NCBI RefSeq assembly: GCF_040822085.1
Contig: NZ_CP162006.1
Coordinates: 1,984,001 to 2,048,000 of the forward strand
Reading direction: 5' to 3'
DNA: 64,000 nt
From: Rhodoferax sp. WC2427
GTDB lineage: Bacteria > Pseudomonadota > Gammaproteobacteria > Burkholderiales > Burkholderiaceae_C
Part shown: piece by piece, positions 29,423 to 35,997 of the stretch
Layout of the letters: each line of letters starts with the position of its first letter
How positions within the stretch are numbered: position 1 is the first letter of the stretch
The notes under the pieces: model-generated
Told to the model about the DNA's origin: nothing
Databases searched by the model: none
The model's input: only the letters and a program-made list of their open reading frames with translations
Translations under genes and position numbers: made by a program

Positions 29423-29977
29423 ATGACCCAAACTGTTGTTGTGTACCACTCCGGCTACGGCCACACCCAGCGCGTAGCCCAGGCCGTGGCCGAAGGTGCC
29501 AGCGCCGAGCTGATCGCCATCGATGCCGAAGGCAATGTGTCTGAAGCCGGTTGGGCCTCGATCAACGCGGCCGATGCCGTCATCTTCGGCACGCCCACCT
29601 ATATGGGTGGCCCGAGCTGGCAGTTCAAGAAATTTGCCGATGCCACCAGCAAGGCCTGGTTCACCAGCGCCTGGAAAGACAAAGTGTTTGGCGGCTTCAC
29701 CAACAGCGCCAGCTTCAGCGGCGACAAGCAGGTCACCTTGATCTATCTGCAGACGCTGGCGTCGCAGCAAGGCGGCATCTGGGTCAGCCTGGGCCAAATG
29801 CCCAGCAACACCAAGGCCGCAACCCGTACCGACCTGAACAACCTGGGTGGCTCGGTCGGCGTGCTGGTGCAGTCGCCCTCGGACTCCAGCCCCGCTGAAA
29901 TGTCGCAAGGCGACCTGGACACCGCCAAGCACTACGGCAAACGTGTTGCAGACATCACCGCCAAATTTCTGGCCTAA
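29423..29977 (+). CDS. flavodoxin family protein (WrbA/NQO-like)
   Basis: This 184-residue FMN-binding protein has the phosphate-binding loop HSGYGHTQRVAQA (near 9-20) and the FMN ring contacts FGTPTYMGGPSWQFKKF (near 62). The C-terminal part has the usual Rossmann-like pattern. It is likely an NAD(P)H-dependent quinone or related reductase. ATG 29423 is used; the reading frame opens at a TTG four codons earlier. It stands between DoxX and the second pirin, a typical redox-stress operon. Confidence 0.88.
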   Translation: MTQTVVVYHSGYGHTQRVAQAVAEGASAELIAIDAEGNVSEAGWASINAADAVIFGTPTYMGGPSWQFKKFADATSKAWFTSAWKDKVFGGFTNSASFSGDKQVTLIYLQTLASQQGGIWVSLGQMPSNTKAATRTDLNNLGGSVGVLVQSPSDSSPAEMSQGDLDTAKHYGKRVADITAKFLA

Positions 29978-30002
29978 CTGTTGACCCCCTAGGAGCCCGA
30001 CC

Positions 30003-30875
30003 ATGCCCATCGCCCTGCAACTCACCGGCCATGCCAAAGATTTGGGGGGCGGCTTCGTGGTGCGCCGGGTGCTGCCCGCCGCCGCGCGGCAGTCGGTCGG
30101 GCCCTTTTTGTTTTTTGACCACTTCGGTCCCGTGACCGTGCCGCCTGGCGGGGGCCACGCGGTGCGTCCCCACCCGCACATCGGGCTGGCCACGGTCACT
30201 TATTTATTTGAAGGCGCGATGCTGCACAGCGACAGCCTGGGCTACGTGCAACAGATCGCGCCGGGCGCCATCAACTGGATGACCGCCGGGCGCGGCATCG
30301 TCCATTCCGAGCGGCCACCACCGGCCATGGCCACCACCGCCTACACCAACCACGGCATCCAGCTCTGGGCCGCGCTGCCGCAGGCCTTTGAAGAGGTGGA
30401 GCCCAGCTTCACCCACACCCCCGCCGAGGCCATTCCCGAACTGACTGTGGGCGATGCCCAGGTGCGCGTGCTGATCGGCCAGGCCTGGGGCCAGACTTCG
30501 CCAGTGGCCACCTTTGCACCCACCCTGTACCTGGACATTGCGCTGCCCGCCGGTGGCCAGCTGGACCTGCCGCCACTGGCGCAGGAGCTGGCGGTGTACC
30601 CGGTGGAGGACGGTGTGGAGGTGGACGGCACCCCGCTGGCCGCCCGCACCCTGGCGTTGCTGCAGCCCGGTGTGACCACGCAGATCCGCGCCACCGCTGC
30701 CGTTCGCCTGCTGGTGATCGGCGGCGACCCGCTGGACGGCCACCGCTTCATCAGCTGGAACTTCGTCTCCAGCCGCAAAGAGCGCATCCTGCAAGCCGAA
30801 GGGGACTGGCAAGCCCAGCGCATGGGGCAGGTGCCGGGGGATGCGGAGTTTATTCCGCTGCCGGAGAAGCATTAG
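30003..30875 (+). CDS. pirin family protein (second copy, full-length type)
   Basis: This 290-residue pirin has the metal site in RPHPHIGLATVTYLFEG and the RGIVHSERP segment near residue 98. It is longer than the first pirin and has the C-terminal pirin domain ending KERILQAEGDWQAQRMG near the end. It follows the flavodoxin gene by 25 bp with AGGAG upstream. Its TAG stop lies at the edge of dispersed repeat copy 5. It is probably an iron-binding cupin; the substrate is unknown. Confidence 0.9.
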   Translation: MPIALQLTGHAKDLGGGFVVRRVLPAAARQSVGPFLFFDHFGPVTVPPGGGHAVRPHPHIGLATVTYLFEGAMLHSDSLGYVQQIAPGAINWMTAGRGIVHSERPPPAMATTAYTNHGIQLWAALPQAFEEVEPSFTHTPAEAIPELTVGDAQVRVLIGQAWGQTSPVATFAPTLYLDIALPAGGQLDLPPLAQELAVYPVEDGVEVDGTPLAARTLALLQPGVTTQIRATAAVRLLVIGGDPLDGHRFISWNFVSSRKERILQAEGDWQAQRMGQVPGDAEFIPLPEKH

Positions 30876-30930
30876 CTATTGAATTTGTAGCTGCTTGTGC
30901 TGGTTCTATCAGCGCTGGTAGCCGTTTTGG
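30872..30930 (+). repeat. dispersed hairpin repeat, copy 5
   Basis: TTAGCTATTGAATTTGTAGC, then TGCTTGTGCTGGTTCTATCA and GCGCTGGTAGCCG, a diverged copy. The TAG stop of the second pirin gene is the start of the element. It is followed by about 200 bp without a gene up to the attC-like site. Confidence 0.65.
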
Positions 30931-31126
30931 TGTCTCTCTTCCGTTTCGGGTGGTGCACCACTGGGTGCCGGCTGGAGAGCTGGCGGGTTTGACGGGTTGG
31001 CTGTCGGTTGATTGGGTGGCAGGGCTGGCTACCGACAGCAACAGGCTGTTGTGGTCTAGCGGGCCATGGTCGCGATCTTCATGACCTGGTGGACCGCAAA
31101 CGTCGTGCTAGAGATCTGTTTTTACA

Positions 31127-31197
31127 GCTTCAACGTTTGAATTTACCGGACTGGCGCGGCTTGTCGCGACAGGTCCGGTGGAATGAATTGTTAGCCG
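31127..31197 (-). repeat. attC-like recombination site of an integron gene cassette
   Basis: Read on the minus strand right after the stop of the 245-residue gene: R-double-prime-like CGGCTAAC, then AATTCATTCCA, a core hairpin ACCGGAC...GTCCGGT with inner TGTCGCG/CGCGCCA, then TAAATTCAAAC and GTTGAAGC. The opening CTAACAATTCATTC is very like the left end of many attC sites. The GTT triplet follows at the other end, about 70 bp in all. The outer stem is imperfect, as is usual for attC. Confidence 0.6.
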
Positions 31198-31950
31198 TCA
31201 CTGCGGCCGCTCCTTCATAAGAGCTGCTTTCGAGGCTGGAATAAGAACGTCTCGACCAGCACCTATGATTGGAAGCAAAAAATCGTTTGCGTTCCTGATG
31301 ACGTGAGGCCCAAGTCGGTACCCGCGCCCTTCCCAAGCAGCCTCGCCCGGCTCTCCTACAAGCACAATCTGTTGACAACCGTTCCTACACGTGTAGACGG
31401 TTTCTTTTCCTTGGCGGGAGATTGTCGCTTGACTGAGTGTTTGTTTCGCCCCGCAAGTTGGGCACGACGTATTGATTTCTTGATCAGTGGGTAACCGCGC
31501 TCCCTGTGGAGCAGTGAGTTGACCGACCAAAACATCTTCCACACGCACGAGTTCGGGAACCAGGCTGAGCCCCAAGAACGCTACCCCAAGGCCCGAGAGA
31601 AAACGGCCGAGCGATTCGTCAGCATTAGAGACTCCGGCATGCGCGCCGGCCCCACCGGCTGCGGCCATGAACTCTTGGACAAGGCGCGCCTCTCTACCCC
31701 GGAGGAGACCAGCAGATTCGAGCGCGCTACGCGCTTCGCCGCCTTTCTTCTTCGTGCTGAGGCGAAGCGCTGCGACTTCATTGAATAGCGCCTCAAGGGC
31801 CGCACGCACTTGCGCGTTCGTAGACTCCCATTCCGATCGGTCTAAGGCTGACTTGGAAAGTTCGAAGTGACGGGCCGCCTCGGCGAACCCTTGACGTTGA
31901 AGGCGTTCCATCAGCGACTGAAAGTGTTCAGACATGGTGGTGACGGTTAA
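31134..31950 (-). mobile_element. putative solitary integron gene cassette
   Basis: The 245-residue gene is followed by an attC-like site. Before its start codon lies GTTAACCGTC (minus strand, 31951-31942). That sequence is the reverse complement, with one mismatch, of GACGGCTAAC at the left end of the attC-like site. In a real cassette the first bases (TTRRRY) and the first arm of its own attC are complementary in just this way, because they are joined in the circular form. Predicted ends: after G at 31951 and at G of GTT at 31134 (minus strand). No integrase or further cassette is visible in the window. Confidence 0.55.
31198..31935 (-). CDS. cassette-borne unknown protein with zinc ribbon
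   Basis: This 245-residue protein starts at ATG 31935; the frame runs further upstream without support. The N-terminal 120 residues are helical with regularly spaced Ala/Leu and a GGAGAHAGVS segment near 103, a pattern seen in HEPN-like and DUF4145-like helical domains. A treble cysteine set CPTCG ... TCRNGC (near 160-192) forms a zinc ribbon, followed by GEPGEAAWEGRGYRLGPH. There is no signal peptide or membrane helix. Lower coding regularity than its neighbours and flanking cassette-like ends suggest horizontal transfer. HEPN relation and any defence role are speculation; no function is assigned. Confidence 0.72.
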   Translation of the reverse strand: MSEHFQSLMERLQRQGFAEAARHFELSKSALDRSEWESTNAQVRAALEALFNEVAALRLSTKKKGGEARSALESAGLLRGREARLVQEFMAAAGGAGAHAGVSNADESLGRFLSGLGVAFLGLSLVPELVRVEDVLVGQLTAPQGARLPTDQEINTSCPTCGAKQTLSQATISRQGKETVYTCRNGCQQIVLVGEPGEAAWEGRGYRLGPHVIRNANDFLLPIIGAGRDVLIPASKAALMKERPQ

Positions 31951-31971
31951 CGTGATGTACACCGCAAACCC

Positions 31972-32004
31972 TGAGGTTTAAATCGGCTGTTGAGGTTTAA
32001 ATCG
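31972..32004. repeat. two direct repeats of 14 bp upstream of the cassette gene
   Basis: TGAGGTTTAAATCG occurs at 31972-31985 and 31991-32004, a 19-bp period, 37-70 bp upstream of the cassette gene start. This could be a tandem operator or a relic of insertion. No other gene is near. Confidence 0.55.
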
Positions 32005-32203
32005 TCCATCAAAATCTTCTGGAAACGGTTTGAAGACTGGTTTTTGATGCGGGTAATGGATTTTTTATACAGGTATAAAAATTCAGACAAACCCCGCATT
32101 CCAAGTGGGGCCACCACTATAGTTTGCCAAAGCCTTGCAGTAACGATAGCGCAGCCCGGGGCGTGTCTTAGCCAGGGGTGCGGGCACGTGCCCAAGGGCC
32201 GCC

Positions 32204-32354
32204 AATCCGCCAAAGGGGTCGGAGCACGAATGCGGGTTGGCAGGAGACACAACAACAGGGTTTTTAGCGCGCAATCGTGGTCCGACCCCATTGGCTATCG
32301 CCCGTGCAGTCGAGACAGGTAGCTTCTCTTTCGATAGTAAAAAACAGGAGCTGC
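32204..32354 (+). repeat. composite palindromic element, copy A
   Basis: This block of about 150 bp starts AATCCGCCAAAGGGGTCGGA. It contains 15-bp inverted arms (GCCAAAGGGGTCGGA at 32209-32223 and TCCGACCCCATTGGC at 32281-32295, one mismatch). It ends CTTTCGATAGTAAAAAACAG, where it runs into a dispersed hairpin repeat. A second copy lies at 32777. The layout is REP/MITE-like, and I see no gene in it. Confidence 0.75.
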
Positions 32355-32400
32355 TTGCGTCCATTCCATAAGCGCTGGCATCCTTTTCGGCACCTGAAAA
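32335..32400 (+). repeat. dispersed hairpin repeat, copy 6
   Basis: TAGTAAAAAACAGGAGCTGC, then TTGCGTCCATTCCATAAGCG, CTGGCATCCTTTTCGG. It is a diverged member of the hairpin family, fused to the right end of composite element A. Confidence 0.65.
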
Positions 32401-32420
32401 TAGGCCTAAAAATCTGAAAT

Positions 32421-32776
32421 GGACGAACGCAGCGGCTTTGCCGATGTGAACCAAGCCAAGCGCCGCGCCGAGCTCGCGCCCTAGGCGCGATGCCCGGCGT
32501 AGCCGGGCCGATCCCGCTCCCCGGGGTCCCCATCTGTGTGCGCCGAGGAGCACAGCTTTGGGCGGATCAGGGCTGGCGTTGTTTGAGCGCCAGCGAGTTT
32601 AGCCAGACCCCGCCCAAAGCGCGCACCGCAGGTTCCCGCAGCGAAAGCGGAGGGCGCAGACAGTTGGGGCGCCTTTCTTTTGGTGTCTTTTCTTTTGCGT
32701 AAAAGAAAAGATACTGCGCCGCCGGGCGCACCACCCGGCCGACGATGCTCGCAGGCACCCAGAAAACGTCAACGCA
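32421..32776. other. gene-free GC-rich intergenic element between the two composite repeats
   Basis: No frame here has credible coding character. The stretch holds a 7-bp stem with 3-nt loop (GCCCGGC/GCCGGGC, 32492-32508), a CCGCCCAAAGC-type motif and, at 32686-32711, a perfect 11-bp T/A-rich hairpin. The run from about 32480 to 32720 is of a type I associate with dispersed intergenic elements often mis-called as short hypothetical genes in Burkholderiales. That association is recollection, not a search result. Confidence 0.5.
32686..32711. terminator. perfect T/A-rich hairpin
   Basis: TCTTTTCTTTT and AAAAGAAAAGA flank a 4-nt GCGT loop, with the stem extended by weaker pairs. There is no neighbouring gene that it obviously terminates, so it is probably part of the intergenic element rather than a gene terminator. 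Confidence 0.5.
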
Positions 32777-32926
32777 AATCCGCCAATAGGGGTCGGAGCC
32801 CAAATGCGGGATGCAGCCCTCTTGTACCGCCAGCAAGCTGCGCGCAATTGGGATCCGACCCCCATTGGCTACCGCCCGTACACCCCACAGATTGCTTCTC
32901 TTTTGATAGTAAAAAACAGGAGCTGC
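32777..32926 (+). repeat. composite palindromic element, copy B
   Basis: This is the second copy of the element at 32204. It shares AATCCGCCAA, GGGGTCGGAGC, AATGCGGG, GCGCGCAAT, TCCGACCCC, ATTGGCTA and GATAGTAAAAAACAGGAGCT in the same order. Inverted arms GCCAATAGGGGTCGGA / TCCGACCCCCATTGGC have one mismatch. It runs straight into dispersed repeat copy 7. Confidence 0.75.
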
Positions 32927-32975
32927 CCACGCTTACGCAATAAGCGCAGGCAGTGTTTTTTTAACCTCAAAATAG
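32907..32975 (+). repeat. dispersed hairpin repeat, copy 7
   Basis: TAGTAAAAAACAGGAGCTGC, then CCACGCTTACGCAATAAGCG, CAGGCAGTGTTTTTTTAACC. The arms GCTGCC..GCTTA and TAAGC..GGCAG pair well and a T-run follows, so this copy could terminate transcription. Confidence 0.75.
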
Positions 32976-33065
32976 GCCAAAAAACCCAGAACTGGCACGA
33001 TGGGCCGGTCATGGCCATCCGCTGGTGAAATCAGCCCCAGCAGCCCATTGCCCATAAACCCCGTT

Positions 33066-35997
<2,932 letters not shown>

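Follow-up and report, generated by a model that had tools for sequence, protein, structure and literature searches.

A stretch of 64,000 nt from Rhodoferax sp. WC2427 (NZ_CP162006.1, positions 1,984,001-2,048,000; assembly GCF_040822085.1), called here the window, carries on its minus strand a single integron gene cassette (31134-31950) headed by a conserved leader that resembles the attI site of an integron. It is very probable that the cassette was put there by an integron integrase (IntI) acting on a chromosomal copy of attI that lacks an integrase gene (intI) and brings its own expression leader. A preliminary description of this DNA overlooked the leader and called the unit an orphan cassette. 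The name stands in that there is no integrase, but the site is not a random secondary one: it is an attI-like leader. In what follows, each species is represented by one genome, several of them draft; the WC2427 genome is a single contig and 100% complete.

The cassette is 817 bp long, extends from one G|TT recombination point to another (31950/31951 and 31133/31134) and has a single gene at 31198-31935. After the gene comes the attC, which as integrated occupies 31128-31196 on the minus strand. The attC-like sequence that had been noticed there has the parts of such a site in order: R'' (GGCTAAC), AATTCATTC, a GC hairpin, AAATTCAAACG, and the GTT of R' (GTTGAAG), with the final 6 nt (31128-31133) belonging to the host site. 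R'' as GACGGCTAAC (minus strand, 31190-31199) is complementary at nine of ten bases to GTTAACCGTC at the cassette start, in agreement with the near-perfect complement described earlier before the start and after the stop. The cassette itself begins at 31950 with TTAACCGTC, and the count of nine includes the preceding G. The bottom strand (the plus strand of the window) folds with -15.1 kcal/mol (z -3.42, 69-nt stretch) and the top strand more weakly, with -11.7 kcal/mol (z -2.41, 67-nt stretch), as is expected of an attC. The G+C content is 57% in the cassette and 65% in the window. A home-made covariance model of attC (R1; 17 training sites, the window attC among them; E-values from our home-made models are rough) found a single match in the window, and no similarity to intI below E 1 was seen in it, so the earlier statement that neither an integrase nor a second cassette is in view holds. 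We thus have one open reading frame (ORF) followed by an attC, with a start complementary to R'', as in a gene cassette, and exactly one attC with no integrase, as in a single attC site lacking integron-integrase (SALIN), a term defined in PMC12690207 (articles cited by PMC number were available in part). An intact intI beside attI, as in a complete integron, is found neither at the window leader nor elsewhere in the one-contig genome. From its sequence, 31134-31950 is a real integron cassette, and its excision and integration by IntI are predicted.

The ends of the unit are also seen in another context. A scan of genome contigs found one relative of the cassette, in a Comamonadaceae metagenome-assembled genome (L035, CANBRM010000014.1). 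When window positions 29900-33100 were compared with it by blastn, 31132-31953 aligned at 93.8% identity, and there was one weak 34-nt match elsewhere. The limits of the alignment fall at the predicted cassette ends to within 2-3 nt, so the unit moved with those ends, and the cassette of 31134-31950 with an uncharacterised gene, first proposed from the window alone, is confirmed in its extent. In the metagenome-assembled genome, in which no intI over the cut-off was found, the cassette follows the attC of another cassette and ends CGTTAGGC.

The leader lies directly upstream of the cassette, from 31951 to approximately 32122 on the minus strand. It contains an attI-like core ending in CATCACG|TT, with the G|TT expected at a crossover point, two 14-bp direct repeats of TGAGGTTTAAATCG (31972-31985 and 31991-32004, plus strand) with a period of 19 bp, a near-palindrome TTTTTATACCTGTATAAAAAA (32061-32081, minus strand) that is conserved in leaders, and CTATAGTGG. 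It is copied elsewhere in the genome, and the copy in the window has no intI. It also bears a leader ORF of 20 codons, MDDLNLNSRFKPQGLRCTSR (31947-32009, minus strand), behind a Shine-Dalgarno region, CCAGAAGATTTTG (32010-32022, minus strand; CAGGAG in most other copies). The stop codon TAA is contributed by the cassette, whose gene starts 11 nt past it and has no visible Shine-Dalgarno sequence of its own. Among 21 leader copies found in the genus (see below), 17 were suitable for testing this layout, four without a clear G|TT being excluded. An ATG and an open frame are present in 15 of the 17 (not in L078 and L081). The stop falls inside the cassette GTTAR in 12 of these 15 and a few codons later in L065, L075 and L080. 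Transcription would start in the leader, ribosomes would load on the leader ORF, and translational coupling would carry them into the cassette gene.

The same core and the same 19-bp-spaced direct repeats precede a broken intI in two members of the genus, G005 (L106) and G006 (L107), and the near-palindrome resembles a stretch just before intI in both. In G006 (L107, 2362-3090), a 243-aa frame matches the integron integrase with the middle missing, and scores 199.5 bits against the TIGR02249 cut-off of 265. The attI region of G006 also has a CTGT-N8-ACAG box, which resembles a LexA site. Elsewhere in the family, G010 (L193) has an intact intI of 335 aa (453 bits against the same 265-bit cut-off). 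The site beside it is matched at E 2e-15 by R2, a sequence model made from 16 leaders, and has five attC matches downstream. Judged by its sequence, the leader is probably an attI-type site, and the direct repeats make it a candidate for binding and recombination by IntI.

The leader is not confined to the window. By plain DNA search it recurs at 21 places in six of the eight genomes of the genus (WC2427 included), and most copies end in the core GCGGTGTACATCACG|TT(A/G) or near it; past the core, the sequences differ. An ORF of at least 60 aa follows in all but one of the 21 (L082); in 19 of them it begins 1-37 nt past the leader match, and in L068 the distance is 138 nt. By inspection, 17 of the 21 have an attC where the ORF ends or shortly past that point (the attC is cut by the contig end in L069 and degenerate in L073 and L083); none was seen in L071, L074, L079 and L082. 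R2, with 150 candidates scored in each genome, detected the leader at 37 places in seven of the eight genomes (again including WC2427), with up to nine in one genome. WC2427 has six such matches, two of them partial, and four head a confident attC-bearing cassette. Among the 150 of 3650 candidates scored with R1 in this genome, all five attC at E<=1.1e-5 have a leader upstream on their own strand, at a distance of 460-1849 nt. Across the genus, attC at E<=0.05 accompanies 23 of 30 leader loci, and ten of the 17 loci outside the training set. The family was searched with R2 more strictly (E<=1e-4, nine candidates scored per genome, stricter filters), and matches were obtained in 68 of the 299 genomes, spread over 45 of the 141 genera. 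In a sample of 21 of these leaders (20 loci, eight genomes), attC at E<=0.01 follows within 4 kb in 18, the exceptions being L178, L181 and L188.

The cassettes behind the genus leaders allowed a control on their ends. Five of the 21 loci were dropped (L071, L074, L082 and L083 without a clear G|TT, L079 without a visible attC). For the other 16, the total score of each start against its own end was above every one of 20,000 permutations. Complementarity of at least 6/7 outside the fixed AAC was found in ten of the 16, and in a mean of 0.09 (maximum 1) when the ends were shuffled. Thus, the complementarity between cassette start and R'' exceeds chance.

The integrase gene is lacking at most of these places. 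The preliminary description had suggested looking for intI in the rest of the genome, and none over the cut-off was found in WC2427, the best TIGR02249 piece having 78.9 bits (cut-off 265) and the best match to PRK15417 52.9 of 435. Around the window leader and four other leader loci of WC2427 there is no intI similarity below E 1. Within 1.5-kb flanks, 28 of the 30 genus leader loci likewise have none (L137 and L145 are the exceptions). Outside this set of 30, intI pieces are present at G005:C34 and G005:C93, and at least four of the 37 leader places in the genus adjoin intI remnants. In the family sample, no intI similarity was seen in the sequence examined beside 14 of the 21 leaders. The intI of the remaining seven is intact in L193, interrupted near its end in L177, and in fragments in L182, L183, L184, L187 and L190.

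Five leader sites are common to several species as judged by their flanks: A (WC2427, G002, G007), B (WC2427, G007), C (WC2427, G002, G005, G006, G007), D (G002, G007) and E (G002, G003). The flanks are common on both sides at A, B and C, except for G002 in C (contig end). At these sites the cassettes differ: among the 14 first-cassette proteins of the five sites, no similarity within a group was found at E<=0.1. The most informative case is site A, on the radA side, where the identity between WC2427 and G002 is 90.5% as far as G|TT; beyond this point the two are unrelated, and similarity returns within about 45 bp past the attC. Junctions at G|TT and just past attC are as predicted by IntI-mediated exchange. 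In the mechanism that we propose, each genome of the genus has several attI copies in set positions of the chromosome, most of those examined being without intI. An IntI that is now absent from WC2427 would have inserted the window cassette at the leader attI, and cassettes behind leaders would have been swapped, as the species diverged, by an IntI that has disappeared since then or works in trans.

Cassettes could also differ at shared sites if whole loci were swapped without IntI, homologous recombination (e.g., in transformation) taking place in the leader and flanks. The leader and flanks do supply homology, and no genome of the genus has intI over the cut-off. Exchange of this kind would, however, ignore the very points, G|TT and just past attC, at which homology ends and resumes in site A, and we consider it improbable as the explanation. 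Even less probable, and strongly disfavoured, is an off-target insertion by IntI at a non-classical attG site, which would make the window cassette an ordinary SALIN. The single attC and the lack of an integrase would suit such an event, and attG insertion is known (PMC12690207; PMC12901181; PMC12444791). But attG sites are said to diverge from the classical type. The site in the window, by contrast, has about 170 bp of conserved sequence, common to the attI of integrons and repeated before other cassettes.

How the leaders came to be dispersed is a separate question, on which we are less certain. One answer, to which we give an even chance, is a distributed integron: the attI and leader head would have multiplied across the family into satellite sites for docking and expression, at all of which one integrase would exchange cassettes; some relatives would have this integrase themselves, and others would have lost it or receive it in trans. 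The other, with a chance somewhat short of even, is that leaders are the decayed heads of separate complete integrons, acquired or duplicated whole, each of which lost intI in place. Three leader loci of G550 that retain N-terminal pieces of intI (40-97 aa) speak for such decay, as do the remnants in G005, G006, G559 (L190) and G721 (L187). It is harder to reconcile with the lack of intI similarity at 28 of 30 genus leaders, 14 of 21 family leaders, and the window and four other leader regions of WC2427. The R2 scores also show a gap, the 17 best genus leaders having 92-137 bits vs. 29-31 for the intI-linked G005:C34, G005:C93 and G006:C19. This suits the copying of a head that was already without intI, bearing in mind that R2 was built from 16 of those 17 leaders. 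Decay in place is made slightly more likely by G006:C193 (L137), a leader of the genus beside which 39 aa of intI remain, since its score of 72 bits is intermediate between the two groups.

Several observations weigh against the insertion of the cassette by IntI into an attI copy with its own expression leader. All eight genomes of the genus lack intI over the cut-off, so present mobility is unproven. There is a sixth, very weak attC match in WC2427 (E 0.87) without linkage to a leader, and attC is absent at seven of the 30 genus leader loci. At sites D and E just one of the two flanks is common to the species, the WC2427 member of site C has lost the attI core, and the cassette differences at shared sites could have come about by homologous exchange of the flanks. 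The comparison with an empty site that the preliminary description had proposed did not yield a clean one. The host sequence on the attC side (30962-31133) is common to G007 (81%) up to the boundary, and in G007 the left flank is retained to about 31149 and the right one beginning at 32191, with about 118 bp of different DNA between and no leader. This DNA contains a weak attC-like candidate with the same GTTGAAG end. As to expression, no sigma-70 consensus was found in a promoter scan of 31000-32400. The leader ORF changes by 0.257, 0.338 and 0.252 at the three codon positions, with no excess at the third. Because the codon positions vary alike, its role is probably the loading of ribosomes rather than the production of a peptide.

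The cassette gene product, P0001 (245 aa; 31198-31935, minus strand), adds two points on the same side. It has a HEPN-fold helical domain (residues 1-125; 31561-31935) without the catalytic arginine: H99 is invariant in 75 sequences, and the R of the Rx4-6H motif is lacking, residues 92-94 being A, A and G. No match of P0001 to a known defence family was found with PADLOC. Its C-terminal beta domain (residues 128-245; 31201-31554) is conserved, has a CPTC...C-x3-C zinc-ribbon, and also follows TIR domains and PD-(D/E)xK domains of DUF6602/NucC-like proteins. The binding of zinc by this domain is suggested by these cysteines. P0001 is probably a single-gene effector of phage defence, in which the HEPN-fold domain would be restrained by the C-terminal domain, which would sense the trigger. 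A less probable reading makes P0001 a stress regulator or a protein of some other function, borne on a cassette by chance. The missing R and the lack of a PADLOC match would fit this, and HEPN cassettes were earlier proposed to act in stress dormancy (PMC3710099). It is at odds with the joining of a single C-terminal domain to three domains of the abortive-infection type (HEPN-fold, TIR and NucC-like). HEPN proteins in integron cassettes are already known (PMC3710099). The integron-cassette family of PDB 3jrt is listed as retaining Rx4-6H, whereas P0001 has no R and, unlike that family, bears a zinc-ribbon domain common to TIR and NucC-like effectors. In having an HEPN-like fold with a conserved H and no R, it is like Parep1/8 HEPN (2q00). 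If P0001 is a defence effector, it adds a candidate whose C-terminal domain is common to three effector types. In L059, L060 and L062, the HEPN-fold domain of P0001 is C-terminal in other bacterial proteins, whose N-terminal part is a different one and has no match in Pfam at E 0.1.

The loci described here are like SALIN, and like clusters of attC sites lacking integron-integrases (CALIN), in that attC-bearing cassettes are found with no intI nearby. The closest case in the literature is that of Xanthomonas CALINs, which recur at conserved chromosomal places (PMC12444791). They differ from SALIN and CALIN, as far as the available text describes them, in that each locus is headed by a copy of an integron attI and leader. 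The leader ORF has the layout of ORF-11 of the class 1 attI1, with the stop supplied by the cassette (PMC8876359). Unlike ORF-11, it has 20 codons rather than 11, encodes another peptide, and is repeated at scattered loci, most of which have no intI. In the delta-attI cassettes of mobile integrons, attI is also found outside its usual place adjacent to intI (PMC12901181), but there pieces of attI replace attC at the end of a cassette, whereas in the genomes studied here the attI leaders are complete and stand in front of cassettes, each at a chromosomal locus of its own. The literature searched (including PMC8618304 and PMC10127599, as available in part; subscription papers lay outside the search) yielded no description of attI copies that are dispersed and lack an integrase. 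What is new, then, is the dispersed and mostly integrase-less attI platforms, integron cassettes and SALIN being already known.

Integrons typically have one attI near the integrase, and the cassettes nearest to it are the likeliest to be expressed (PMC9024848). Satellite attI leaders, if real, would give each cassette a promoter-proximal seat, with many first positions instead of one, and would explain how integrase-less cassettes recur at fixed loci. They would be overlooked, because detection of attI by IntegronFinder is limited to class 1 (PMC9024848). The sites being constant and their cassettes interchangeable between species, cassette turnover can also be studied site by site.

A few minor observations are added. 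Pieces of 31951-33060 match the WC2427 genome 61 times (self included) at up to 96% identity, with dispersed intergenic repeats at 32315-32412 and 32887-32984. Several leaders are preceded by similar short repeats, which may have aided leader copying. A second leader locus of WC2427 (L110, 1690980-1693036) heads two cassettes. The product of the first has 275 aa and a DpnII-MboI nuclease domain, and matches the PADLOC family Argonaute-associated Helical-REase at 7e-30; a 314-aa, membrane-protein-like ORF precedes the second attC. An attC-like site with 84% identity to that of the window is present on the conjugative Shewanella plasmid pNi1-3 (L042, 5997-6063). It lies behind genes for mobile mystery proteins A/B, and the annotated gene that comes after them encodes a site-specific integrase that is not named as an integron integrase. 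Finally, at two leaders of G550 (L182, 4242-5953, and L184) no ordinary cassette follows; in its place comes a second tyrosine recombinase, which has diverged from IntI (33% identity), and after it, in L182, a cysteine-rich, transposase-like ORF. This element at attI is presumably IS91-like.
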